The notes beneath the pieces are model-generated. The model saw nothing but the letters and a program-made list of their open reading frames with translations. It was not told where the DNA came from and did no database searches. DNA of 30,309 nt, taken from the IMG/VR virus record IMGVR_UViG_3300046006_001819, positions 1 through 30,309 of that record; one strand, written 5' to 3'. This document shows positions 11,461 to 26,845 of this stretch, piece by piece. The position numbers were made by a program, and so were the translations under genes. The DNA comes from a virus. Positions within the stretch are counted from its first letter, which is position 1. The number at the start of each line of letters is the position of its first letter.

Positions 11461-13522
11461 AAATATTACCCTTAGGAACTTTCTAAGTATCGGTGCAGTA
11501 ACACAAGCAGTTAACTTCGATAGCAAGGAACTTACGCTTATTCTTGGTGAAAACCTTGACCTAGGTGGTGACGGTGCTAGAAATGGTACAGGTAAGACAA
11601 CTCTTATTCAGGGTCTTACCTATGTATTGTTCGGCAATCCTATCAATCAGATTCGCAAAGATAACTTAATCAATAGAACGAACGGCAAGGGTATGATGGT
11701 TACTCTTGAATATAGTTCTGCCGGTATTGAGTATAAGATTGAACGCGGTCGCAGACCAAATATTCTCAAATTCTATGTTAACGGTGAAGAACAGAAGGAC
11801 GATACAGCAGATAGTGCCCAAGGGGAGAACAAGGATACGCAAAGAGAAGTTGAGCGTACTCTGGGTATGACTGCGGACATGTTCAAGCACATTGTTGCGT
11901 TGAACACCTATTCTGCGCCATTCTTGTCATTGCCGTCAGGTGACCAAAGAAAGATTATTGAACAGCTTCTTGGTATCACGTTGCTTTCTGAAAAGGCTGA
12001 CTTGATTAAAGAAAAGATTCGCATTAATAAGGACTCTATCCAGCAGGAAGAGTTTAGAGTTAAAGCGACCGAAGATGCTAACAAGCGTGTTCAAGAACAG
12101 ATTGACAGTTTAAAGCGCCGCCAAACTCTTTGGCAGAAGCAGCATGACGAAGCACTTAACAAGCTTATCGCCGACTATGATGAACTTAGCAAGATTGATA
12201 TTGAAGTTGAACTTCGTTCACATAAAGACTTAGTTGTTTACAATGACCTAAAGAGAAAGCAAGAACAGTATGATGCTATTCTTGCCCGCCAGATTGCTTG
12301 GAAGCAAAAGCGTGACAATGACATCGCTGCCCTTCAAACGCAATATGACACATTAAGTAATATTGATATTACCGCAGAGTTACAGGCTCATTATGACTTA
12401 AAGATATATGAAGCTAACAAGATTGAACTTGAAAGTTTACACAAGACCATTAAAGCACTTGAAGCTTCGCTTAAGAAGGATCAAGCACTTGTACTTAAAT
12501 TGCAGGAAGAAATCAATACTCTTGAAGAAAACAAATGCTATGCGTGTGGTCAAGACTTCCATGATGAAAGTCATGCCTCAGTAATTAGCAACAAGCGTGA
12601 CTTGTTGATTGTTTCTGAAGGTGATCTTGCCCAAACCCAAAATGATTTAGAAAAAAATAAAAATTCAATTTATGTTTTGGGCGAGAAGCCAGTAACGCAC
12701 TACGCCACTGAAACAGAAGCTATCAAGCATAGTTCAGAACTTGAGCGTATTCAGCAGCAGATTCAAACTAAGAATGATGAAGAAGACCCTTATGCCGATC
12801 AGTTGATTGGTCACGGAGTAGTGCTTCCCTCAATGCCGGTGACAATCTATGATACTGAGGCAGAAGCAGTCGAACATAAAACTATCGTTGCTAATCTTGA
12901 GAAGTCTATTGCGACCAAGGCAGAAGAATCTGACCCATACAGTGAGCAAATCACTGATATGGAGAAGCAGGCTCTACAGGAAATCAGTTTTGATAAGATT
13001 AATGAACTCACTAAGTTGGGAGAACATTACAAGTTCCTACAAGACTTGCTCACAAGTAAAGACTCATTCGTTCGTAAGAAGATCATCGATCAGAACTTAA
13101 GTTATCTAAATAGTAGGTTGACGAACTATCTTGACAAGATTGGTTTGCCGCACACTGTAGTATTCAAGAATGACTTGTCGGTTGAAATTACTGAACTTGG
13201 TCGTGAATTAGATTTTGATAACTTGAGTCGCGGTGAGCGTAACAGATTGATTCTTGGACTCTCATTTGCATTCAGAGACGTATGGGAAAACCTATACTAT
13301 CCTATTAATACAATCTTCATTGATGAATTGATTGATTCGGGTATGGATACTGTTGGAGTTGAGAATAGTATGGCTATTCTCAAAGACATGTCTCGTAGAC
13401 GTAACAAATCTATTTGGCTTGTGTCTCACCGAGAAGAACTTGCAGGGCGAGTTCCACAAGTTCTCAAGGTTGTAAAAGAAAATGGGTTTACAAGTTACAA
13501 TACGACTACAGATATCGAATAA
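11444..13522 (+). CDS. gp46: recombination endonuclease subunit gp46 (Rad50/SbcC-like ATPase)
   Basis: This is the SMC-like ATPase partner of gp47. The N-terminal ATPase half has Walker A GARNGTGKTTL (residues 44-54) and the conserved LTYVLFGNP helix end. A long coiled coil (about 185-560) is broken at CYAC (365-368), the zinc hook. The C-terminal half has the ABC signature LSRGERNRLILGLSFAFRD (near 594-612), Walker B TIFIDELID (near 622-630) and the switch His in WLVSHREE. At 692 aa it is longer than T4 gp46 (560 aa); the extra length lies in the coiled coil. The loop before the Walker A lysine is expanded (GENLDLGGDGARNGTGKT compared with the usual 'G.NG.GKS'). It overlaps the upstream gene by 17 bases. 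Confidence 0.93.
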   Translation: MSIVLKNITLRNFLSIGAVTQAVNFDSKELTLILGENLDLGGDGARNGTGKTTLIQGLTYVLFGNPINQIRKDNLINRTNGKGMMVTLEYSSAGIEYKIERGRRPNILKFYVNGEEQKDDTADSAQGENKDTQREVERTLGMTADMFKHIVALNTYSAPFLSLPSGDQRKIIEQLLGITLLSEKADLIKEKIRINKDSIQQEEFRVKATEDANKRVQEQIDSLKRRQTLWQKQHDEALNKLIADYDELSKIDIEVELRSHKDLVVYNDLKRKQEQYDAILARQIAWKQKRDNDIAALQTQYDTLSNIDITAELQAHYDLKIYEANKIELESLHKTIKALEASLKKDQALVLKLQEEINTLEENKCYACGQDFHDESHASVISNKRDLLIVSEGDLAQTQNDLEKNKNSIYVLGEKPVTHYATETEAIKHSSELERIQQQIQTKNDEEDPYADQLIGHGVVLPSMPVTIYDTEAEAVEHKTIVANLEKSIATKAEESDPYSEQITDMEKQALQEISFDKINELTKLGEHYKFLQDLLTSKDSFVRKKIIDQNLSYLNSRLTNYLDKIGLPHTVVFKNDLSVEITELGRELDFDNLSRGERNRLILGLSFAFRDVWENLYYPINTIFIDELIDSGMDTVGVENSMAILKDMSRRRNKSIWLVSHREELAGRVPQVLKVVKENGFTSYNTTTDIE

Positions 13523-14140: not shown

Positions 14141-14480
14141 CCTACATTGTTATGTTCGTAAGAACCTCCTTGAGGCCGCACCACTGATGAATGCGTCCGG
14201 ATCTGGAGTATGCGTGACCGTGAGGTCATGGAATACCGATAGGGCTCTCGTTAGGTAGGCGAACCCTAAATGAGTCTGTGATATACTCTGTCTTGATAAT
14301 CACAGAACATGCGTTGCAGAGATGAAATATGCTCACTACAGTCCCATAAAACTTTACAGGGCAACCGGTAGCGATTAACAGCGATACGAGCTAGTTAGTC
14401 GGGGAACAGACAGCACAGGATGACGGGCCATGGCAAGGACCAAGTCTAGGTAGTGCCTCTCAGGGGCACTACCATGGCTT
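14141..14480 (+). ncRNA. candidate structured non-coding RNA, class unknown
   Basis: No reading frame of note covers this stretch and it is visibly GC-richer than the flanks. It folds locally into many hairpins: GTTC-GTAA-GAAC (14154-14165, GNRA loop); CCTC/GAGG (14165-14175); a 7-bp stem closed by GTGA, another GNRA loop (14213-14230); TAGGG/CCCTA (14240-14268); TCTGTGAT/ATCACAGA (14275-14306, 8 bp); and an 11-bp stem GGTAGTGCCTC/GGGGCACTACC with loop TCA (14449-14473). The last has no T tract, so it does not look like a simple terminator. GNRA loops are read on the plus strand, which favours that direction, following the nuclease gene. I could not place the cores of tmRNA, RNase P RNA, group I or II introns or a hammerhead. 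Strand, ends and function are not established. Confidence 0.4.
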
Positions 14481-14603: not shown

Positions 14604-14630
14604 ATAGAGAGAAATTATCTTTCTCTCTAT
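14604..14630. terminator. hairpin between convergent transcripts, possible terminator
   Basis: A perfect 11-bp stem, ATAGAGAGAAA (14604-14614) and TTTCTCTCTAT (14620-14630), has a 5-base loop. It starts nine bases beyond the stop of the gp26 frame extension. The stem itself ends in A/T on both sides and no clear T run follows, so it may act as a processing or stability hairpin rather than a strong intrinsic terminator. Confidence 0.5.
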
Positions 14631-14638
14631 AACCGCTC

Positions 14639-14869
14639 TTAGAAATACGGCAGTTGGGATTTCTTTGTGATTTCTATATGGTCTTCTACTAGCTTTCCTA
14701 TGTGGTCTCGTTCCTCTGAGGACATATTCAGAATATCTTCGTAGGAAGCGCCCCCTCGCATATGCCATGCAAGGGATAACGCAGCCTTTCGTATTCCCGA
14801 AATGTCTTCTTCGTAACCTTCCAGCAGCTTTCTAATCTCCTCGGGACCCGAGTTTAGAAGCCTCAGTCG
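14639..14869 (-). CDS. -1 frame extension of gp26 (76 residues), expressed by programmed frameshift
   Basis: This frame opens just after a stop that lies six bases before the slippery site, and it has no ATG or GTG until its middle. It therefore has no sensible start of its own, yet it encodes a clearly protein-like, polar-helical sequence: EEIRKLLEGYEEDISGIRKA, ALSLAWHMRGGASYEDILNM and SSEERDHIGKLVEDHI, ending KKSQLPYF. The 'R.AL..AWYMRG..SYE...MS..ER..I...I..N.E.TKK..LP.F' pattern is one I associate with short proteins encoded next to gp26 in T4-like phages. After a -1 slip on T-TTT-TTC, the gp26 frame continues here and would yield a fusion of about 350 aa. The parallel is the G/GT or E/E+E' tail-assembly chaperone frameshifts of other phages. 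Confidence 0.75.
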   Translation of the reverse strand, partial: RLRLLNSGPEEIRKLLEGYEEDISGIRKAALSLAWHMRGGASYEDILNMSSEERDHIGKLVEDHIEITKKSQLPYF

Positions 14870-14875
14870 AAAAAA
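14827..14875 (-). promoter_or_regulatory. programmed -1 ribosomal frameshift signal
   Basis: On the minus strand the slippery heptamer T-TTT-TTC occupies 14875-14869, with zero-frame codons TTT TTC, the classical X XXY YYZ form. The zero-frame stop TGA is at 14865-14863. Seven bases after the heptamer a stem begins: GCTTCTAA (14861-14854) pairs with TTAGAAAGC (14835-14827, one bulged A), and inside it CTCGG pairs with CCGAG around a GTC loop. Heptamer, 7-base spacer and downstream stem-loop are the standard parts of a -1 frameshift site. Confidence 0.78.
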
Positions 14876-15690
14876 TCAGTAGGATTTAATGTGATTGTTT
14901 GGTCGTACTTGTTTCCGCAAGCTACACAAGTAATCTGCATGGGCTTTAACTCGCTATCTTTTCTAATATTTGCGCTATATTCTCTGATTTGAATATAAAG
15001 ATTTCTATCACAGTGCTGTAGGAAATCTAGAATGTATGCGGTTTCTGTTACGGGTACTGAGGGAGTGTTGATTTCAACAATAGACTTGCTTAGTAGTTCC
15101 ATTGTTAGGCTAGTAATCTTTTGCAAACCTTCTTGCATAATCTTAGCCTTCTTCTCATCATCTTCAGCACTTTCAAGTTGATTGAAGATGCGCTGTAGTT
15201 CAAATTGTTGAACTGATGCTTCATTTACTTCTCTAAAAGAAAGAGGTCTAAATGAAATCGAAAGGTCACCTAAGTCAAGTGGAGTCTTGAAGTCTGGGCT
15301 AGAAAGACCAGTAAGTAATCCTGCTAGATTAATTTTGTATCCTGAGACTTCTCCACATTTCGGACATGCTGATTCGATATCCATTTCACCGTTAGGACTT
15401 GATGCTGCTTTGATAGCAACTAAAATTGCATCTAAGTCAACGTTAGATACTGCCCAAGGATCTTTGATGTTCGGGATGCAGCTTCTAATCAATTCTACTA
15501 CCGCAGTTCCATTGAATAATGCGTCAGGTGTTCTTGCGGTAATTTCATCGATTGCAGTCATTGGGTAGACAGGAAGTTCGCCAGTTTCTGTTACCTCGAT
15601 TGCTCCTTCAGGATAGCCTAAGCCACCTGAAGGTAACTTCATATAAACTGATGGTCTTCTGAAATATTGTCTTAGCGGATTGTTGTCCAT
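14863..15690 (-). CDS. gp26: gp26-like baseplate hub protein (zero-frame product)
   Basis: This is a T4-type baseplate protein of the gp26 family, 275 aa. The start DNNPLRQYFRRPSVYMKLPS and the stretch GELPVYPMTAIDEITARTPD, then ALFNGTAVVELIRSCIPNIK and DPWAVSNVDLDAILVAIK, are characteristic. Two Cys pairs follow, CPKCG (near residue 95) and CVACG (near 258), which may bind a metal. I chose ATG 15690 because GAGGA lies seven to eight bases upstream; an in-frame ATG at 15705 has no ribosome site. It is 275 aa compared with 208 for T4 gp26. The zero frame ends FFD-stop directly on a frameshift signal, so the gene should make both a short and an extended form. A late-promoter-like motif lies upstream at 15743-15749. 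Confidence 0.82.
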   Translation of the reverse strand: MDNNPLRQYFRRPSVYMKLPSGGLGYPEGAIEVTETGELPVYPMTAIDEITARTPDALFNGTAVVELIRSCIPNIKDPWAVSNVDLDAILVAIKAASSPNGEMDIESACPKCGEVSGYKINLAGLLTGLSSPDFKTPLDLGDLSISFRPLSFREVNEASVQQFELQRIFNQLESAEDDEKKAKIMQEGLQKITSLTMELLSKSIVEINTPSVPVTETAYILDFLQHCDRNLYIQIREYSANIRKDSELKPMQITCVACGNKYDQTITLNPTDFFD

Positions 15691-15726
15691 GTGTGGGTTC
15701 CTCATAAAAAATGTGTATTGTAATTA

Positions 15727-15751: not shown

Positions 15752-15789
15752 GGCAAAAAAGTAGCTATTTAATTTTACCGGAACGTTTG

Positions 15790-18700
15790 ATGAACTCAGA
15801 ATTTACTCAGGAACTAGAAGAAGAATTTCGTGTTCTAGTTGAGCTACTATCTCAACATGCATCTGCCATGTCCGGCATGACAGCTTCTATGAATCAAATC
15901 ACCACCGTGGTTGTTAATGCTAACTCCTCTGTAACAGATTATAATAACTCGCAGAAAAATAACGTTGATGCTATCAAACAGAACAACGCCGGCTCTACTG
16001 CCCTTCAGAGATCAAATAAGAAATACAATGAAGTAGTAAATGAAGCTAGAGATAGCTTTATTAGAGCGGCAGATGTAGGTAAGAATGCTCTAATAGGTTT
16101 ATACAAAACTGCTATAAGCACACAAGAAGGCTTTGCAAAATACAATAGCACTATTAGCAAAGTCGGTGACATATCAGTTGAGCTGGGTAAAAACTTTGGA
16201 ATCTTAGGAACTGCTGCTGGATATCTTGTTAAAGGCTTTACTGTACTTCTAGAGTATCAAACCCAACAAGCCGATAACATACTAAAAGCGACGGATGAAG
16301 TCGCCCGAATGGGGGCAGCCGGCACTTTCACTGCAAAACAGATATTGGATATGGGGCATGGCGCTGGTCTGACCTCAATGGAACTGGAAAAGTTAACTGG
16401 GCCAATGAAGTCTGTCAGTGGTGGATTTGTTGCTTTAGGCGGGACTACATCTGAGGGAATTAAAAAATTCGGTGAGATGGTCGCTGTTAGTGAGGATGTT
16501 CGCAGAGAATTTAAACGACTTGGTATGGGAGACAAAGAACGTAATCAGACAATGGCTGATTTCGTTTCACTAATGAACAAGTCCGGTACAGCATTTTCCG
16601 GTGAGTTAAGTTCCGCCGGGGCAGTACAACAAGCGGCGCTGCAATACACGAGACAGATGTATGTATTAGCAGATGTTTCCGGGATGTCTGTTGAAGAAGC
16701 TAAGAAAAAATATGAAGCGCAAATGTCCACTTTGGAGACGGCTCTCTATCAAAACAAGATGGAACAGGACAGAATTGCTGCTCAAAAAGCATTTGACAAT
16801 GCTGATACCGCAGAAGAACGAGCAGCAGCAAGTGCTAAATTAGAAAAAATCAAAAAAGATAAAGCTGGTTACACCGCATTCAATAATGCGTTAATGCAAG
16901 CTGGGCTAGGACCTGAACAAGTCGCAGCCGCACAAAGACAATATTTTACTGGATACATAGACGGTACTAGCGCACAGTTTGCTCAGTGGGGAGTTGACCT
17001 TGATTCACTCATCACTAAAGCAAAATCAGGTGAATTGGATTCCGGCGAAGCTGCACAAGAAATAAAAACTGGGTTTCAAAGCACAGTTAACAATCTAGGG
17101 CAAACTACTATTGCACTAGACCAACAAACAGCTAAGAATATGGGATTGGGTGTCGATATGATTCGTCGCACAACCCAGCAGTCGGAAACCGATTATAAGA
17201 AACAACTACAAGATGCAGTTGGTAAAATTACTGGTAATCAATATGGTGTAGGTAAAGTAGCCGAAGATCCGGCACAAGAAGCTAGGAACGATCTCACTGA
17301 AGCTGAACGTGCTTTGCGTATAACGGCAGACTCATTTATTGCAGACTTAAACCCACTGTTAGGCAATACTGGTCTACTTAAAGGATTAGGTATTGCAGCC
17401 GCTGCCGCAACTGCAATATTCTTAGCAATTGCAGCATTTAAATTAGGCTCTGCTGGCGTAGGTCTAGTAAAGAAGATAGGTACTAGCCCCAGCTCCGGAG
17501 TCAAAGGAGCATCAAGAACTGAAATAGGATTGGCAGCAGCCAATCCAATCGAAAAAGCTGATGACGCTTCATTCGCTACTAAAGCAGTCAATGCAGAAGA
17601 TACTGCAACCAAAGGAATACAATTAGCATCTGAGCCAAAATCAAGTTTGGCTGCTAGATTCTTATTTTTCATTACTGAAGGGTTAGCAGGTTTTGGAGCA
17701 GTAGCAGTCCCAATGACAGTGGGTTCAGTAAAACTAGCAGCCGCAATAATTGCAGTGGGCGCCGCCGTCGCAGCAGCTAATGTAACAATAGGTAAAGTCA
17801 CAATACCATATATCGCTAAAGGTATGTCTAGATTTGAAAATCTAGATGGACCTAAGATACAACTTATGGGTCAAGCAATCGCTAAATTAGGACTTGCATT
17901 TGCTATTGGGTCAGGATCAAGCTTACTAGCCTCATTAGATTTCTTTAATGGAATAAAGGGCGGAGAAGATGCAATTGACGATATCAATAAGCGGGTCTTA
18001 AAGTTACAAGAAATAGAAATCAATAAGGATCAATTCGAAAACAATCTCGACGCATTAATAGAATTTTCTACAGCTATGTTCTTAGGTAAAGTTGCTAGCA
18101 TAAAACTGGCTGACGTTAATGCAGCTAGTAATATAGTTAAAGGTGTTTCTTCGTTCTTTGGTGTAAAACCTCCACTAAGCCAAGCAGTCTACTTCTCGCA
18201 CTTAGGTATGAACGTAAAAAGAACTAAGAACAATGCAGAATCATTTAAACTATTCTCCGAAGCAATGTCATCTTATAAGGGTATGGGCAGTGGACTAGAC
18301 TCTATCAGTAGTTCTTTGGGTGAAGCGTTATTCAAATATTTTAATGCTAAACCGCCACTAGAACAATTTGTTGAATTTTCTAATCGAACAATTGATGAAA
18401 AGAAAGTAGAGAATGATGCAACCGCATTTACCAACTTTGTTAATGCAATGGCTAGTTACCGACCAGGACCTGGGTTCTTAGACTCTATCAGTAGCTTACT
18501 TACCGGTGGCACCTCTTATTTTAACAAAGGCGGTCCAGTTTATAAATTTGAAGAATTTGCTAATAAGGACTTTGTAAAAGATAAAAAAACTGGTGAATTT
18601 GATACTGGACTGTTAGAACAGTATGCATCTGATGTTGGTACAGAAGCCTTTATTGGAGAGTCACCCGTTGCTCCTGTAATTGATGATATAGCTGATGCAG

Positions 18701-19473
18701 CCAGTAATGTAGTTGATGCAGGCAAGGATGCAGTGAATGCAGCAACCGGATTTTTAGGAGACCTGGTAGATTCTGCTATTCTAAGTTTAAAACCAAAAAA
18801 TGTAACTTTAGGACCTGCGGCTTTTTTCAATATTATAGATAAAAATATGCTAGGCAGGTTCTTCCTAGCAGCTAAAGATTTTGGTAAACCAATAACTATT
18901 GGCAGTGCTTATAGACCAGATTCTTATCAGGCTCAAATTTGGGTAAGAGGTACAATTCTAAAAGAAAAAGGCATTTATACTCCTGCCAGACCAAAAGATA
19001 CCACTACGATTACTTATAAAGGCAAGCAATATACTGTAGAAGGTTCAGGTAAAGGAAGCAGACACTTACGGGGTGAAGCTATAGATATGAGTACTGATAG
19101 GTCAGCATTTGATCCTTATCTATTAAAATACGGATTACATCGCCCCTATAAGAAAAAAGATGCTCCCCACGTTCAACTACAAGCTAAAGAAGGTGGAGTA
19201 TTCACTGGACCTGGTTCAGGTTACCCAGTAGAATTACATGGTTCAGAAATCATCGTCCCAATGAATCCTGATTCTGTTCTTATGAAACTATCTCAACTAG
19301 ATTCGGACAATCTAGATGAACAAGAACTAGAAGATATCCTAATGGGTAGACAGAACGATACCAGAAATTTTGAACTATACAGTCAGTTGATATCACAACT
19401 AGATCAGATATATTGGATGGTTGATAGTACTACTGATATTGATAAAAAGATGCTCAAAGAGCAACTTTACTAA
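15790..19473 (+). CDS. tape-measure-like tail protein, paralogue 1, with M15-type peptidase domain
   Basis: This 1227-aa protein is the first of three tandem siblings. Residues 1-75 form a coiled coil (TQELEEEFRVLVELLSQHAS); the shared core (about 100-500) contains GFAKYNSTI, GGTTSEGIKKFGEM and VRREFKRLGMGDKERNQ. DPAQEARNDL is at about 493. Hydrophobic segments lie near 530-556 and 646-668, and a repeated module of about 60 residues at 726-930. Residues 1017-1135 are a peptidase M15-type (VanY/endopeptidase-like) domain: SAYRPDSYQAQIW, SRHLRGEAID with zinc ligands His1092 and Asp1099, and His1127 in PHVQL. It would cut peptide cross-links in the cell wall. A GGVFTGPGSGYPVELHGSEI motif follows, common near the C-terminus of phage tape measures. 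ATG 15790 directly follows an in-frame TTG; the ribosome site is weak. Confidence 0.72.
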   Translation: MNSEFTQELEEEFRVLVELLSQHASAMSGMTASMNQITTVVVNANSSVTDYNNSQKNNVDAIKQNNAGSTALQRSNKKYNEVVNEARDSFIRAADVGKNALIGLYKTAISTQEGFAKYNSTISKVGDISVELGKNFGILGTAAGYLVKGFTVLLEYQTQQADNILKATDEVARMGAAGTFTAKQILDMGHGAGLTSMELEKLTGPMKSVSGGFVALGGTTSEGIKKFGEMVAVSEDVRREFKRLGMGDKERNQTMADFVSLMNKSGTAFSGELSSAGAVQQAALQYTRQMYVLADVSGMSVEEAKKKYEAQMSTLETALYQNKMEQDRIAAQKAFDNADTAEERAAASAKLEKIKKDKAGYTAFNNALMQAGLGPEQVAAAQRQYFTGYIDGTSAQFAQWGVDLDSLITKAKSGELDSGEAAQEIKTGFQSTVNNLGQTTIALDQQTAKNMGLGVDMIRRTTQQSETDYKKQLQDAVGKITGNQYGVGKVAEDPAQEARNDLTEAERALRITADSFIADLNPLLGNTGLLKGLGIAAAAATAIFLAIAAFKLGSAGVGLVKKIGTSPSSGVKGASRTEIGLAAANPIEKADDASFATKAVNAEDTATKGIQLASEPKSSLAARFLFFITEGLAGFGAVAVPMTVGSVKLAAAIIAVGAAVAAANVTIGKVTIPYIAKGMSRFENLDGPKIQLMGQAIAKLGLAFAIGSGSSLLASLDFFNGIKGGEDAIDDINKRVLKLQEIEINKDQFENNLDALIEFSTAMFLGKVASIKLADVNAASNIVKGVSSFFGVKPPLSQAVYFSHLGMNVKRTKNNAESFKLFSEAMSSYKGMGSGLDSISSSLGEALFKYFNAKPPLEQFVEFSNRTIDEKKVENDATAFTNFVNAMASYRPGPGFLDSISSLLTGGTSYFNKGGPVYKFEEFANKDFVKDKKTGEFDTGLLEQYASDVGTEAFIGESPVAPVIDDIADAASNVVDAGKDAVNAATGFLGDLVDSAILSLKPKNVTLGPAAFFNIIDKNMLGRFFLAAKDFGKPITIGSAYRPDSYQAQIWVRGTILKEKGIYTPARPKDTTTITYKGKQYTVEGSGKGSRHLRGEAIDMSTDRSAFDPYLLKYGLHRPYKKKDAPHVQLQAKEGGVFTGPGSGYPVELHGSEIIVPMNPDSVLMKLSQLDSDNLDEQELEDILMGRQNDTRNFELYSQLISQLDQIYWMVDSTTDIDKKMLKEQLY

Positions 19474-19503: not shown

Positions 19504-22500
19504 ATGGATCCAGAAGTAACTAGAGAATTAGAAGAACAACTTCGAAATTTGAATGAGATGATGTCTCAGCAAACTGCCGCTTTGACTGGAATGGCTAGAG
19601 CAATAAATGATTCTAATCTAGCTGTAAAAAATGCAGGCAACTCTACCAATCAATTAACTAAAGCTCAAAAAGAAAATGAGCAAAGTTCTAACCAAAATGC
19701 AACTGCTACCACGGCACTTCAACGGTCAAACGAGAAGTACGGCGAGGTTATGCAGAACGTATCTGCTAATTTTTCCGCCGCATATAGTTCAAGCACTAAT
19801 GCATTAGGTAGTTTTGTACTATCAGTATTGGGCGCCCAAGAAGGCTTTGCAAAGTACAATTCTACTATTGGTGGGTTAGGCGATGCAGCATTTAGTGTTG
19901 GTAAAAGCTTTGGTATTTTTGGATTCATCATCGGTGGTCTATTTAAAGTAGGCTCAGAAGTATTACAGTACCAAACTCAACAAGCCGACGGTCTGCTTAA
20001 TGCTACTGATGCAATTTCCCGAATGGGAGCCGCAGGTACATTTTCAGTTGAGCAAGTTAGGCAGATGGGTAGAGGTGCAGGTCTCTCCTCACTAGAACTC
20101 GAAAAACTAACTAAGCCAATGCAATCAGTGGAAGGTGGTTTTGTTGCACTAGGCGGAACAACCTCAGAGGGAATTAAAAAATTCGGTGAAATGACTGCGG
20201 TCAGTGAAGATGTCCGTAGAGAATTCAAACGTCTTGGTATGGGAGACCAAGAAAGAAATCAGGCACTTGCTGATTTCGTAACGATGATGAACAAGTCTGG
20301 TACAGCAGTATCAGGCAATTTAGCAACACAAGGTGGATTGCAAAAAGCTGCTTTAGCATATACGAGAAATCTATATGAGTTAGCAGAAATGACCGGCAAG
20401 GATGTCGAAACTGCTAAAAAAGAACGTGAAACTCAAATGGCTACTATGGAGGTTGCGCTCCAAAAAAACAAATGGGAATCCGAAAGAATCAATGCGCAAA
20501 AGAGACTACAAAACGCAACAACCGAAGAAGAACGTGCCGCCGCTAGCGCCGACATTGAGCGCATAGCTAAAGAAGAAGCTGGCTTCGAACAATTTAATAA
20601 TGAACTAAAACAAGCTGGTCTAAACCAAGAACAAATCGTAGCTGCCCAAAATCAGTATCTAACTGGAACTATCAACAGAACAAGTTCTCAGTTTGCAATT
20701 TGGGGTGTCGATATGGAAGGCATGATCCAGAAATCTAAAGATAATACTTTACAAGCTGGTGAACTCGCACAGTCATTGAAAACTGGATTCCAAGACACGC
20801 TCAACACCTTTGGTCCCGCACTGGCACTAGCTCCCGAAGCAGCAGCAGCCGTCGGCGGAAACAATATAGAAATGATCGGAAGAACGACACAAATGTCGGA
20901 AACCGATTACCGCAACCAAGCAGCAGTAGCAAATGCTAATGTAGGAGCCAATCAAGCAGGAACAGGTGCCGCTGCATTAGATCCGGCACAAGAGGCCAGA
21001 AATGATCTCACTGAAGCTGAACGTTCGCTAAGATTAAAAATCGATGACTTGGCTGCTCAATTTAATCCTTTGTTAGGCAACATGGGTGGGTTAAAATTAT
21101 TAGCTGGAGCAGCATTGGCAGCCGGCGCAGTACTAGCAGTAATTGCCGCCGGAGCAGCCGGATCCGCAGTTTGGTCAGGTGGAAAGTCACTCATTCAAAA
21201 AGTCGGAGGATTGTTCGGCAAGGGCAAAACATCTGATGTAGCAGATAGTGGTTCTGCATTAGCGGATACCGGAAATGATAAAGCAGCGCAAGACTTGCAA
21301 AAGGTTGCCGGTGGTTCTTCGATTGAAGTGTTCTTGCGTGGAATTACTGATGGATTTTCAGCCGCAGGTAAACAATCCGGCAACGTAATCAAAGGCGGTG
21401 CCGCATTAGCAGCTTCTATAGTTGCAATTGGGGGAGGTGTTGCCGGAGCAACTTGGATATTAGGCAAGTCATTGCCGACTCTTGCTGAAGGACTAACAAC
21501 ATTCAATGAAGTTGATGGTGAAAATCTAAAGCCAGTAGGGTTAGGTATGGCAGGTCTTGGTGCTGGTCTGCTAGCAATGGGTGGCAGTAAAGTATTAGGC
21601 TCAATCGGCAATCTAGTTAACTTCTTTACAGAAGAAAAAGATCCACTGGATACAGTTACATCACAAATTCTAAAAATGCAGAGTTTGGTATTTTCTAAAG
21701 CAATGGCTAAAGTATCTGCTTTGGGTGCAGTGTCCGGCATAGGCTCTATGGTGCAGGGCATGACTGAAGGCATTACTGCATTCTTTGGCGGCGACCCTCC
21801 TTATCAAGACGTTGTTGACTTTTCTCACTTAGACATTGATGCAAAGAAAACTAAAAACAACGCCACTGCATTCAAACTGTTTTCAGAAGCGTTGTCTTCT
21901 TACGAAGGGTTAGGCAGTGGATTGGGCGCAATTAGTACTGCTTTGGCAGACTCAACGGCCAAGTTCTTTGGAGTCAAGCCTCCCTTAGAAAAATTTGTAT
22001 ATTTTTCTCATTTAAACATTAATCCTAAAAAGGCAGATATAAACTCTAAAGCATTCGTTGCATTTTCAAATGCAATGGCTTCATACAAGGGCGGTCCTGG
22101 ACTAATTGATACTATAAGTACCTTAGCAGGCGCAGCATTTGGCAGCTTATTTGGTTTAGATGGTCCTATCGAAGCCTTTGGTAAATTTGCTAATAAAGAC
22201 TTTGGACCAAATGCAGCCGCAAATGCAAATGCATTTTTGAAATACGCACAAGGCGTAGGTTTAGCACGCCAAACAAATAAAGCCGCCGAAGCCGCAGCCG
22301 CAGCGCCCGCTGCAGCCGCAGCGCCCGCTAGCCCAGCATCTTCGACATCCGCACCAGCAGCAGCCCCGGCAGCAGCTTCGGCAGCAGCACCGAGCGCCGG
22401 ATCAGCACAGTCTACTCCAGCACCTGCTAAAGCACCAGCTGTGCAGCCCTCGGCTGCACAACCTGCAAGCAGTGCATCTTCGTCACCCGCACTTGAGAGT

Positions 22501-23043
22501 GATGAGAGTAATCAAATCAGTACAGGTAGTGAAAGCTCTGGAACTGAAAAGTACACAATTAACGGACGAGTAGTAGGTAAAAAAGAGTATGATGTTTTTA
22601 TGTCTGCTCATCCGGAACTCAGTAAACTTTCCCGTTCTGAATCGAGTGATTTAAGTGCATTGCTTGGCGGAACCGGTAAAATTAATCCGGAAATGGCAGC
22701 TAAGATACAAATGTTAGGGATAAACGTTGACAGTCTAAACCAGCTTGCCTCTACACAATCAGGGTTAGCTGATGTTAAAATGCCAGGGAGTGAAATCAAA
22801 GCTCCGCTAAACACTAATTCAATTCTTATGAAATTAGCTAAAACAACCGAAGAAGAAATGAAAGCTACTGCAAAAACAGCTAATGCATCTAAAGCTAAAC
22901 CCGCTGCCACTACACCTTCAGAACAGGGTGCAATGAACTTAGAATTGTATAGTATGATAACTGGTAAGGTTTCGAAAATGCTTGATATCTTAGAAAATAC
23001 TAATAGTACTACCGACAAGAGACTTAAGGTTGCTAGAGCCTAA
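19504..23043 (+). CDS. tape-measure-like tail protein, paralogue 2, without recognisable hydrolase domain
   Basis: This 1179-aa sibling aligns with paralogue 1 from end to end of the core: VTRELEEQLRNLNEMMSQQT coiled coil, GFAKYNSTI, GGTTSEGIKKFGEM, EFKRLGMGDQERNQ, YTRNLYELAE and DPAQEARNDLTEAER (about 494). The repeated module (about 711-923) is present, but its first copy seems shortened compared with paralogue 3: QILKMQSLVFSKAMAKVSAL lacks the IDPKRVEDNSEAL part. The hydrolase region is replaced by an Ala/Pro/Ser linker (about 927-1000), then a small domain (KYTINGRVVGKKEYDVFMSA) and the family C-terminal tail (NSILMKLAK, ELYSMITGKVSKMLDILENT). The GGVFTGP..GYP motif is reduced to PGSEIKAPLN. 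A structural rather than enzymatic sibling is the simplest reading. Confidence 0.7.
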   Translation: MDPEVTRELEEQLRNLNEMMSQQTAALTGMARAINDSNLAVKNAGNSTNQLTKAQKENEQSSNQNATATTALQRSNEKYGEVMQNVSANFSAAYSSSTNALGSFVLSVLGAQEGFAKYNSTIGGLGDAAFSVGKSFGIFGFIIGGLFKVGSEVLQYQTQQADGLLNATDAISRMGAAGTFSVEQVRQMGRGAGLSSLELEKLTKPMQSVEGGFVALGGTTSEGIKKFGEMTAVSEDVRREFKRLGMGDQERNQALADFVTMMNKSGTAVSGNLATQGGLQKAALAYTRNLYELAEMTGKDVETAKKERETQMATMEVALQKNKWESERINAQKRLQNATTEEERAAASADIERIAKEEAGFEQFNNELKQAGLNQEQIVAAQNQYLTGTINRTSSQFAIWGVDMEGMIQKSKDNTLQAGELAQSLKTGFQDTLNTFGPALALAPEAAAAVGGNNIEMIGRTTQMSETDYRNQAAVANANVGANQAGTGAAALDPAQEARNDLTEAERSLRLKIDDLAAQFNPLLGNMGGLKLLAGAALAAGAVLAVIAAGAAGSAVWSGGKSLIQKVGGLFGKGKTSDVADSGSALADTGNDKAAQDLQKVAGGSSIEVFLRGITDGFSAAGKQSGNVIKGGAALAASIVAIGGGVAGATWILGKSLPTLAEGLTTFNEVDGENLKPVGLGMAGLGAGLLAMGGSKVLGSIGNLVNFFTEEKDPLDTVTSQILKMQSLVFSKAMAKVSALGAVSGIGSMVQGMTEGITAFFGGDPPYQDVVDFSHLDIDAKKTKNNATAFKLFSEALSSYEGLGSGLGAISTALADSTAKFFGVKPPLEKFVYFSHLNINPKKADINSKAFVAFSNAMASYKGGPGLIDTISTLAGAAFGSLFGLDGPIEAFGKFANKDFGPNAAANANAFLKYAQGVGLARQTNKAAEAAAAAPAAAAAPASPASSTSAPAAAPAAASAAAPSAGSAQSTPAPAKAPAVQPSAAQPASSASSSPALESDESNQISTGSESSGTEKYTINGRVVGKKEYDVFMSAHPELSKLSRSESSDLSALLGGTGKINPEMAAKIQMLGINVDSLNQLASTQSGLADVKMPGSEIKAPLNTNSILMKLAKTTEEEMKATAKTANASKAKPAATTPSEQGAMNLELYSMITGKVSKMLDILENTNSTTDKRLKVARA
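22284..22500 (+). repeat. Ala/Pro-coding low-complexity repeat tract
   Basis: Irregular GCN/CCN repeats, including two copies of gccgcagcgcccgct (near 22299 and 22314), encode an Ala/Pro/Ser linker in paralogue 2. The siblings do not share it. It sits where paralogues 1 and 3 carry their hydrolase domains. Confidence 0.7.
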
Positions 23044-23071: not shown

Positions 23072-26000
23072 ATGGATCCAGATGTAGTAAAAGAACTTAA
23101 CGAACAGATAAGGCAGCTAAATGAAATGCTATCGCAGCAAGCTACCGCTATGTCTGGTTTGGCAAGTTCCATGACATCGGTAGCTCCTGCAATGAAAAAT
23201 GCAGCGGATGCAACTTCAAAAAGCACTACCTCTCAAAATAATAATACGCAGTCAATTAATAAACTTGGTGGTTCTGTAACTAAACTAGACGAAATACAGA
23301 AAAAGTCAAGTCAAAATATGAATGACGCTGCAAAACACTTTGCAGCAGCAGCACATTCTTCCGGACAAGCTCTTAGAAGTTTTAAAGACAAACTATTAAG
23401 TGCTGAAGAAGGATTCGGGAAATACGGCGACGCCATCACTAAGATGGGCGATTCAGCGTTTGAATTAGGCAAGAGTTTTGGAGTTTTAGGAACCCTCTTT
23501 GGAGGAGCATTAAAAGTTGGCTCAATCGTCCTAGACTATCAATCTAAACAAGCAGATGCATTATTCAGTGCAACTGATGAGATTTCTAGATTAGGCGCAG
23601 CCGGAACGTTTACCGTCGAAGAAATTCGAAAAATGGGAGCCGGCGCAGGATTAGCATCAGCCGAATTAGAGAAGCTCATAAATCCAATGAAGTCTGTACA
23701 AGGGGGCTTTGCTGGATTAGGGGGTTCTCAGTCTGAGGGTATCAAAAAGTTTGGTCAACTTGCGGCTGTTAGCGAAGGTACACGTAGAGAATTCAAGCGT
23801 CTCGGTATGGGAGACCAAGAAAGAAACCAAGCTCTAGCTGACTACATCAGTATGATGAATAAATCCGGTGCTGCATTCTCCGGCAATTTAAAAACACAGA
23901 GTGGCTTACAAAAAGCAGCATTAAACTATACTAGAAACCTATACGAATTAGCTGAGATAACAGGTAAAGATACAGCAACAGTAGCCAAAGAACGTGAAAC
24001 TCTTATGGCTTCTATGGAAGTTGCACTCCAACAGAACAAGTGGGAGGAAGAACGCAAAGCTGCAAATACGAGACTAAGAGAAGCCAAAACTGACAGTGAA
24101 AAACGGGCAGCACAAGCAGACCTTGACCGAATTGACCGTGAGAAAGCAGGGTTCGAACAGTTTAATAATGAATTGCAACAATCCGCACTAAGCGCAGAAA
24201 TGAAAGCTGCCGCCCAACAGCAATTCTTGACTGGCGTCACCTCTGCTCAAAGTGCCAAATTCAAGATGTACGGTGTTGATTTAGATAAATCAATTGCCGC
24301 AGCAAAAAATAATACGCTACAAAAAGGTTCATTAGCTCAAGACATTAAAATTGGAATGCAAAAGACCTTAGACAACCTTGACCAACGCACGGTCGGGATG
24401 TCAGAAGATTTACAAAAAGCATACGGATACGACCAAGAAACTATTGCTAAGCTAAACCAGCAAATGAAATATGATTTGCGAACTGAGGCGGGTCGCGCCG
24501 CAGCAGCGGTTAAGGCCAACCAAGCAGGAACAGGGGTAGCTGCGACAGACCCTGCTCAGGAAATGCGCAATGACTTAGTTGAAGCAGAGCGTAAGGCTAA
24601 GTTAGTAGTAGATGAACTTGCTGCATCGATGAATCCGTTCTTAGGTAATATGGGAATGCTTAAAGCGTTTGGTGGACTTGCTGCACTGGCGGCTGCTGGA
24701 TTAGCAACAGTAGTGGCAGCTAAAGGTTTGTCAGGTCTGCTTTCATTCTTTAAGAAAGGTGATGCAGCAGCTATTCCCGGCGCCGCAGCTACTCCGGGCG
24801 CTGCACCATCAGCTACTCCAAGTGCAGCGCCAGTACGCATCCAAGAAGACCAGCTTCTAGATAAAAACGGTAAACCATTAAGGGGCGCAGCTAGAGACGC
24901 TAGGATGTGGAAACTAGCCGGAGATAAAGGCGCAACAGTTGAACCTGCAAAGAAGGGTATAGGCGGTGCAATTAAAGGCATTGCAAAATCACTATCTGAT
25001 GCAGGGGCAGCAGCACCCGGAGTAATAAAGGGAGCAGGCGCATTAGCAGTAGCTATTACTGAGTTCGGTGCAGGTATAGCCGGCGCAGTTTGGATTTTTA
25101 GTAAAGCTCTGCCTTCATTCGCTGATGGACTCAAATCATTCAAAGAAGTCGATCCCATGAATCTACTTGGTGTAGGCTTAGGTATGGCAGGGCTTGGCGT
25201 TGGTATACTGGCAATGGGCGCAGGAACAGTAGCCTCTGCAATTGGAAGCTTAGCAAAACTACTTACTGGCGGAAAAGATCCGTTCGAAGACATTTCACAT
25301 ATGCTGTTCACTATGTCAATTCTTGACATTGACCCTAAACGAGTTGAGGATAATAGTGAGGCGCTAATATCATTTGCTAAAGCAATGGCTGCAATATCAG
25401 GTTTAGGCGCACTTAGTGGAATCGGTAACGCAATTAAGGGGGTATCCGAATCATTCGGATCATTGTTTGGATCACAAACACCTCTAGAACAGTTAGTAGA
25501 ATTCTCTGAGTTATCAATTGACGCAAAACAAACAAAGAATAATGCACTTGCATTTAAATATTTTGCTGAAGCTATGGCATCATATGAAGGATTAGGCAGT
25601 GATGTCGGTGCAATTGGATCTGTTTTAGCCGACGCTACAGCAAAGTTTTTCGATGTTAAGCCGCCATTAGAGCAAGCTGTATATTTTTCTCATTTGGATA
25701 TTAACAAAAAGAAAACGGAAATTAATGCTAAATCATTCGTACTATTTTCAGAAGCAATGTCCTCTTATAAAGGAGGTCCAGGATTACTAGATGCAGTCAG
25801 TACTATAGCCGGCGCTGCCCTGTATAAGTTATTCCAGCGTGAGGGACCAATGGAAAGCTTTAAGCGTTTCACTGAAATGAAGTTCGGTGAAAATGCTCTG
25901 AAAAACTCAACTGCATTTTTTAACTTTGCAAAAGGTATAGCAATTCTGTCATCAACCGGACCCGGTCTATTAGATACCGCAATCAGTGCAGGCGCCAATA

Positions 26001-26845
26001 TAGTAGGGGCCGCTGGTACAGCTATTGCCGGTGCTGCGGCAGCAGTAGGAAATTTCTTCACCGGCGATGCAGGTACACAGCAAGGTTCAGAAGTAAAAAT
26101 CGGAAATGAAATTAGAAAAGGCGGAACGGTGTCTTGGCGAACCAACAATCCTGGAAACGTTTCTTATGGTGGTCTGGCTAAGAGTTACGGTGCAGTAGGT
26201 CGCTGGATAAAACCAGACGGTGACAAGCAACAACGTACTACCGGTATTGCTATCATGCCAACTTATGAACACGGTCTCAAATTAAAAATGGGACTGTGGA
26301 GAAGGCCAATGTACCAACCCTTAACGATGGCTGAAGGGGTAAGCCAATGGGTAACTGGCAAGGCGCGCCCGGTTGCACCACATACTGCAAACTATGCTAA
26401 AGATATGGCTCAAGCCGCCGGCGTCCCTGTTAATTTCCCCCTTAGTAAATTAAGTGATTCGCAACTTAGAGCGGCAGCTATAAAACAAGAAAAATGGGAA
26501 GGGTTCAAAGCGGGGACAATTGCTAAAGCAAGATCGGGCGGCGTTTTCACCGGACCTAAATCCGGGTACCCAATCGAAATGCACGGAACTGAAATGGTAA
26601 TTCCGTCTACACCAAATTCAATACTTACTAAATTAGCTCAATCATCAAGTGAAGTCTCTAACATGACTTTTTCTGCATTACGTAAATCTGCAACTAAAGA
26701 CGGAGATCGTCCGGCTAGAGATGAAACTACTTTCCTAAGTCCAGAAATGATATTAGATTTGGCTAAAAAGTTTGATAATGTGATTGGTGTACTAGAAGAT
26801 AGTCAAGATACCAACCACAAGATATTAAAACATTCTATGGCATAA
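23072..26845 (+). CDS. tape-measure-like tail protein, paralogue 3, with NNPGN-type lysozyme-like domain
   Basis: This 1257-aa sibling has the same plan: VKELNEQIRQLNEMLSQQAT coiled coil, core motifs SEGIKKFGQL, REFKRLGMGDQERNQ and YTRNLYELAE, DPAQEMRNDL (about 493), a hydrophobic segment and four repeated modules (about 736-960; for example KPPLEQAVYFSHLDI). Residues about 1015-1145 contain SWRTNNPGNVSYGG (Asn1025-Asn1029) and end in a helix AAIKQEKWEG with Glu1140. This resembles the 'NNPGN...' domain of phage virion-associated muramidases or transglycosylases; the enzymatic type is inferred. GGVFTGPKSGYPIEMHGTEM follows, then the family C-terminal tail. It is preceded by a GAGAG ribosome site and its own late-promoter-like motif. 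Confidence 0.7.
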   Translation: MDPDVVKELNEQIRQLNEMLSQQATAMSGLASSMTSVAPAMKNAADATSKSTTSQNNNTQSINKLGGSVTKLDEIQKKSSQNMNDAAKHFAAAAHSSGQALRSFKDKLLSAEEGFGKYGDAITKMGDSAFELGKSFGVLGTLFGGALKVGSIVLDYQSKQADALFSATDEISRLGAAGTFTVEEIRKMGAGAGLASAELEKLINPMKSVQGGFAGLGGSQSEGIKKFGQLAAVSEGTRREFKRLGMGDQERNQALADYISMMNKSGAAFSGNLKTQSGLQKAALNYTRNLYELAEITGKDTATVAKERETLMASMEVALQQNKWEEERKAANTRLREAKTDSEKRAAQADLDRIDREKAGFEQFNNELQQSALSAEMKAAAQQQFLTGVTSAQSAKFKMYGVDLDKSIAAAKNNTLQKGSLAQDIKIGMQKTLDNLDQRTVGMSEDLQKAYGYDQETIAKLNQQMKYDLRTEAGRAAAAVKANQAGTGVAATDPAQEMRNDLVEAERKAKLVVDELAASMNPFLGNMGMLKAFGGLAALAAAGLATVVAAKGLSGLLSFFKKGDAAAIPGAAATPGAAPSATPSAAPVRIQEDQLLDKNGKPLRGAARDARMWKLAGDKGATVEPAKKGIGGAIKGIAKSLSDAGAAAPGVIKGAGALAVAITEFGAGIAGAVWIFSKALPSFADGLKSFKEVDPMNLLGVGLGMAGLGVGILAMGAGTVASAIGSLAKLLTGGKDPFEDISHMLFTMSILDIDPKRVEDNSEALISFAKAMAAISGLGALSGIGNAIKGVSESFGSLFGSQTPLEQLVEFSELSIDAKQTKNNALAFKYFAEAMASYEGLGSDVGAIGSVLADATAKFFDVKPPLEQAVYFSHLDINKKKTEINAKSFVLFSEAMSSYKGGPGLLDAVSTIAGAALYKLFQREGPMESFKRFTEMKFGENALKNSTAFFNFAKGIAILSSTGPGLLDTAISAGANIVGAAGTAIAGAAAAVGNFFTGDAGTQQGSEVKIGNEIRKGGTVSWRTNNPGNVSYGGLAKSYGAVGRWIKPDGDKQQRTTGIAIMPTYEHGLKLKMGLWRRPMYQPLTMAEGVSQWVTGKARPVAPHTANYAKDMAQAAGVPVNFPLSKLSDSQLRAAAIKQEKWEGFKAGTIAKARSGGVFTGPKSGYPIEMHGTEMVIPSTPNSILTKLAQSSSEVSNMTFSALRKSATKDGDRPARDETTFLSPEMILDLAKKFDNVIGVLEDSQDTNHKILKHSMA

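Follow-up and report, generated by a model that had tools for sequence, protein, structure and literature searches.

A conserved slippery site at the end of gp26 and a putative -1 frameshift into a gp51-like domain in jumbo-type phages

Introduction

Why would a gene named after a baseplate hub protein end on a slippery heptamer, with a second reading frame running open across its stop codon and a stem-loop predicted just behind it? This question is raised by the gp26 gene in a 30,309-nucleotide stretch of viral DNA (IMG/VR record IMGVR_UViG_3300046006_001819; hereafter the window, meaning the whole stretch that was analysed). An initial annotation, made from the sequence alone, proposed that a programmed -1 frameshift appends a small domain to gp26. 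Here we follow up that proposal by comparing the locus with its relatives, and weigh it against other ways in which the second frame could be expressed or could have come about.

Results

The gp26 locus of the window

The window encodes a T4-type portal, a late sigma factor, gp46/gp47-like SbcCD subunits and a baseplate wedge subunit, and neither a tRNA nor an Rfam match was found in it. By sequence search, the cultured phages closest to it are jumbo phages, namely Atu_ph07, Phosso, the PA5oct/Paride group, BF and CBB, together with GAP32, 121Q, Munch, RaK2, SCTP-2 and others; PBECO4 is also among the matches. The name gp26 holds for the gene in question, since its zero-frame protein matches both Pfam T4_baseplate (8e-13; 49 bits against a gathering cut-off of 24.5) and the baseplate hub family phrog_150. 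An in-frame ATG is present at 15705, upstream of the gp26 start listed in Table 1, and relatives align from MDNN.

Read on the minus strand, gp26 ends in ...NPTDFFD* (GAT TTT TTC GAC TGA), with the heptamer T TTT TTC in X XXY YYZ phase and the stop codon right behind it, just as the initial annotation had described. Both the slip site and the second frame are thus seen directly. The -1 frame stays open for 78 codons and adds 76 new residues after FF, in agreement with the length claimed for the extension, which gives a predicted fusion of 350 aa. Its earliest ATG/GTG/TTG comes 107 nt past the slip, in the middle of the domain, so that the claim of there being no usable start before that point is borne out, and the stem-loop that was said to begin seven bases downstream is predicted to begin 6-7 nt past the heptamer. 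The features of a programmed -1 signal are therefore present: an X XXY YYZ heptamer, a spacer of 6-7 nt, and a stem that is selected at the level of the group (see below).

Two other elements lie beyond the extension. A minus-strand hairpin is found 8 nt past the -1 frame stop (Table 1), and the intergenic region downstream of gp26 holds an imperfect 19-bp palindrome (79%) at 14442-14480.

Table 1. Positions of the gp26 gene, the elements of the putative frameshift signal and the neighbouring features in the window.
Feature	Position	Strand	Remarks
gp26 zero-frame CDS	14863..15690	-	275 aa; PF12322 T4_baseplate and phrog_150 baseplate hub
Slippery heptamer T TTT TTC	14869..14875	-	from sequence reading and conservation in relatives
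Zero-frame stop TGA	14863..14865	-	3 nt past the heptamer
-1 frame extension, FF + 76 residues	14639..14875	-	TAA at 14641-14639; homologue of the gp51 C-terminal domain
Predicted downstream stem-loop	14826..14862	-	arms 14862-14854 and 14835-14826; inner hairpin 14852-14840
First ATG of the -1 frame	14759..14761	-	mid-domain (AWHM|RGG); implausible as a gene start
Perfect 11-bp hairpin	14604..14630	-	candidate transcription terminator, from sequence
Probable tape-measure protein	15787..19473	+	1228 aa; VanY-like C-terminal part; divergent neighbour, conserved beside gp26

The gp26 gene and the probable tape-measure gene are adjacent, and lie divergently on opposite strands. No profile named the 1228-aa ORF as a tape measure; homologous ORFs stand beside gp26 in many relatives, and the counterpart in RaK2 is annotated as tape-measure-like. 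The C-terminal region of this ORF resembles VanY (D-Ala-D-Ala carboxypeptidase). Between it and the portal, two further plus-strand ORFs encode 1179 and 1257 aa (19504-23043 and 23072-26845), and for neither was a convincing PHROG match found. In Rhizobium phage RHph_I1_9, the gene order is tail tube, gp26, gp51.

Conservation of the slip site

Because bare TTTTTTC occurs six times in the AT-rich window, the heptamer alone proves nothing. At the gp26 end of 17 cultured relatives, TTTTTTC is present in 15 and TTTTTTT in two, and in every case the -1 frame that follows is open and encodes a related protein. For 59 jumbo-type loci, the window and the cultured relatives included, these counts are 57 and two, and TTTTTTC is found in all 62 of a further set. 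As a result, TTTTTT followed by C or T, with an open homologous -1 frame from the slip onward, is seen in 121 of 121 jumbo-type loci (TTTTTTC in 119), which are partly non-independent, the two sets having been dereplicated against each other only for the stem test, and which mostly come from metagenomes, as do the relatives in general. The heptamer is also carried by all 66 distinct cyanophage-type (P-SSM2-like) loci, by Schizotequatrovirus phi-Grn1 and by Desulfovibrio phage 7757.

The spacing of 3 nt between heptamer and stop is common to 44 of the 59 jumbo-type loci; the zero-frame tail past the slip ranges from 3 to 33 nt, and the protein of the -1 frame stays aligned. A Shine-Dalgarno-like stimulator upstream of the slip was found in none of 78 sequences. 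What is conserved across the relatives above chance is the slip site, the frame and the stem, as well as the phase and place of the heptamer. The initial annotation had named an alignment of gp26 loci as the comparison that might refute it, and the outcome favours the proposal: relatives keep the heptamer and the -1 frame, and most of the jumbo-type ones have no separate start close to the slip.

Coding in the -1 frame

Among 41 ungapped sequences, no stop codon interrupts the -1 frame, and codons with a single difference are synonymous to nonsynonymous at 12799:8703, against 3963:19616 and 2114:21651 in the other two frames. The synonymous excess is limited to the -1 frame, whose third codon positions vary most; the -1 frame is under protein selection. 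This agrees with the initial annotation, to which the extension looked like a real domain found beside gp26 in relatives. The +1 frame, open over short stretches only and unconserved, was rejected. In none of the annotated relatives examined is the fusion recorded, and the second frame, if present at all, is given as a separate hypothetical protein or as gp51, so the annotations of these relatives need correcting.

A stem selected at group level

The predicted stem of the window (-11.9 kcal/mol) is by itself ordinary, with a z of -0.62 against dinucleotide shuffles. For 78 dereplicated sequences, the same shuffles give the stem a mean z of -1.9 +/- 0.2, against -0.74 to +0.07 at nine other offsets. 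When codons are shuffled synonymously, the mean z is -2.64 and 68% of sequences reach p < 0.05, with controls at -0.63 to +0.17. Covariation in the stem, at 74.8% paired, was yet no better than in shuffles, and RNAalifold returned no structure on the alignment. Selection on the downstream stem beyond codon needs is supported by the shuffles, at the level of the group only. A P-SSM2-type phage has a different stem, of 11 pairs and 5 nt downstream, and several cyanophage-type loci likewise have a different stem of similar size about 5 nt downstream.

The extension and the gp26/gp51 family

AlphaFold2 models the extension as a confident small helical domain (pLDDT 87). In profile and sequence comparisons, the gp26 core matches T4 gp51 (E 1.4e-6), the cyanophage extension matches the C-terminus of T4 gp51 (E 6.5e-7) and the jumbo extension matches the cyanophage extension (E 2.3e-5); a direct profile comparison of the jumbo extension with the C-terminus of T4 gp51 is weak (E 0.02). 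Judged by these matches, and with the cyanophage extension as a bridge, the jumbo extension is homologous to the C-terminal domain of gp51. T4 gp51 is itself a gp26 paralogue (PF12322, 3.9e-52) with the extension fused in frame, T4 gp26 ends without a heptamer (GAG TTC TTT GAG), and the annotated gp51 of P-SSM2 is the -1 frame after TTTTTTC. Eleven of the 23 extensions tested against PHROGs belong to phrog_18291, a family without assigned function.

Fold searches were less telling. A sequence search found no solved structure for gp26, and Foldseek against the PDB gave no significant match. When the chaperone N-domain fold was looked for with VIA-align, the HK97 chaperone 2ob9_A covered 100 of 107 residues in the alignment (Z 5.8, rmsd 5.1), but unrelated helical chains scored equally well, and the comparison failed to discriminate. 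Against viral models, Foldseek matched the extension mostly to small phage proteins without names, with a tape measure chaperone of Moogle and a baseplate hub assembly catalyst of Acinetobacter ZZ1 among the lower, non-significant rows.

Going by these homologies, a single protein seems to exist in two forms, gp26 being the short one and gp26-gp51 the long one. Frameshifting would supply both in the jumbo phages, P-SSM2-type cyanophages, phi-Grn1 and Desulfovibrio phage 7757; T4 would use a separate gene for each, and Vibrio phages D531 and 207E48.1 apparently rely on a stop-start overlap.

Discussion

We consider it very probable that gp26 and its -1 frameshift product are a tail-assembly chaperone pair resembling lambda gpG/gpGT. 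Most ribosomes would stop at the TGA and release the short gp26, while a minority, decoding TTT in the P site and TTC in the A site, would move back by a single base to TTT TTT, assisted by the stem downstream, and would go on to make the long protein with its helical, gp51-like C-terminal domain. By analogy with the lambda pair, the short form may coat the tape-measure protein, a few long forms may bring in tail-tube subunits, and both would be gone by the time the virion is complete. What we infer is that slippage takes place, how the two forms are proportioned, and that they act as chaperones in this phage, the last of these from homology and gene layout. Several points speak against this reading. 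The genes for gp26 and the tape measure are on opposite strands, whereas a classical chaperone gene has the same strand as the tail tube and tape-measure genes that flank it. The stem of the window alone is ordinary and its covariation is matched by shuffles, the direct profile match of the jumbo extension to the C-terminus of T4 gp51 is weak, and the fold match to the HK97 chaperone does not discriminate. The initial annotation is supported as to the frameshift, for which the comparative evidence is strong. It knew of no such frameshift in a T4-type baseplate gene, but gp26 is a member of the T4-type chaperone family (gp26/gp51); the frameshift is thus the one expected of a chaperone, and does not point to a new gene class.

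Could the extension instead be a separate small gp51 gene, whose translation is coupled to that of gp26 or re-initiates close to its stop codon, with T6C reflecting FF codon usage? Several loci lend this some credit, since cyanophages have an ATG 8 nt past the heptamer that is annotated as the gp51 start, phi-Grn1 and RHph_I1_9 have stop-start overlaps, and in Vibrio phages D531 and 207E48.1, which lack the heptamer, the overlap is TAATG. However, no start is found soon past the slip in the window or in most of its closer jumbo relatives, and no start-codon position in the -1 frame is conserved among jumbo-type relatives; for the window, a gene with its own start was rejected on these grounds. 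Protein conservation begins at FF, upstream of any start codon, and tblastn with the extension alone gives matches in relatives that begin exactly at the first (slip) residue. Codon usage is also an unlikely source of the heptamer, as the T-preceded TTT-TTC is kept while Phe codons elsewhere in the same gp26 genes vary (TTT 367, TTC 245), and the 12 other FF pairs in these genes all use codons other than TTT-TTC. Moreover, when representatives of the cyanophage-type loci were folded, several had the ATG annotated for gp51 within the 5' arm of a stem, and for that reason this annotated start may go unused. All in all, we regard a separate gene as unlikely.

Less likely still is slippage of the polymerase on the T6 run, by which a fusion mRNA would be made in place of ribosomal slippage. 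The homopolymer of six T is indeed there, and either kind of slippage would yield the same protein, but a run of six bases is short for polymerase slippage, and a selected stem at ribosome spacing and a conserved terminal C fit a ribosomal heptamer. That the frame break is a sequencing error, a misassembly or a decayed fusion, of which T4 gp51 would be the existing in-frame version, is refuted in practice, because more than 180 separate sequences share the break at the same place, and selection is purifying on either side of it.

Returning to ribosomal frameshifting, two variants of the gene end deserve mention. In Vibrio phages D531 and 207E48.1, the ATG of the extension overlaps the gp26 stop, a third expression mode. 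The gp26 end of RHph_I1_9 has a slip-like TTTTTTG together with a TGATG overlap, possibly an intermediate between frameshift and re-initiation. We see an even chance that the TTTTTTC one-gene frameshift is ancestral in the T4-superfamily, with T4 having duplicated the gene (gp26, gp51) and Ackermannviridae-type phages having taken up the stop-start overlap. If true, a single protein pair has moved between three modes of recoding or expression, and the long-unexplained essential gp51 of T4 is a frozen long form. On the chaperone reading of the locus, the "baseplate hub" gene and the orphan phrog_18291 of jumbo phages move to the tail-assembly-chaperone class, and the notion of a T4 group without chaperone frameshift fails for its large relatives. 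The locus and its relatives also offer a two-form system in which frameshift, duplication and stop-start overlap occur as natural variants, and in which the need for a fixed short:long ratio becomes testable.

Comparison with known systems

The lambda pair gpG/gpGT and its counterparts are reportedly treated as -1 frameshift chaperones by Xu, Hendrix and Duda (2004). As in lambda, the locus studied here combines a short ORF with a -1 extension reached through a heptanucleotide slip in overlapping frames, and the gene stands beside a probable tape measure. It differs in its unrelated sequence, its TTTTTTC slip, its larger PF12322 gp26, and in the position of gp26 on the strand opposite the tape measure. 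Lambda needs a small share of the long form, and its virion retains neither of the two (PMC5009743); according to Atkins et al. (2016, PMC5009743), long-tailed phages other than T4 have widely kept the chaperone frameshift.

For T4, PMC3004832 counts gp26 and gp51 among the chaperones of hub assembly and states that the particle contains no gp51. The gp26 core and extension described here are homologous to gp26 and the gp51 C-terminus of T4. The T4 genome encodes the short protein and the fused paralogue in separate genes and lacks the heptamer, where the window has one gene and a putative frameshift. Cyanophage P-SSM2 and its relatives share the identical heptamer, the -1 extension and a downstream stem, but have a shorter extension with an ATG just past the stop, annotated as a separate gp51 gene.

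T4-like chaperone genes are said to have been identified by Vladimirov, Gautam and Davidson in 2022. A 2025 paper that cites this work mentions poly-T slip sites and T4-like chaperone genes (PMC12846349), and the PRFect paper says of the same work that some T4-like phages have a short copy and a fused long copy, with no frameshift (PMC10885494). The Vandenendeviridae phage Adele frameshifts by -1 at a poly-T motif that closes a tail-assembly-chaperone gene located upstream of the tape measure; it belongs to another phage family and has the motif GTTTTT (PMC12846349). Our literature search pairing jumbo phage, tail assembly chaperone and frameshift found no paper. Going by these papers, poly-T slippage in T4-like chaperone genes seems to be in the literature already, and our finding is not categorically new; what may be new is the jumbo-phage branch, its stems and the identity of phrog_18291.
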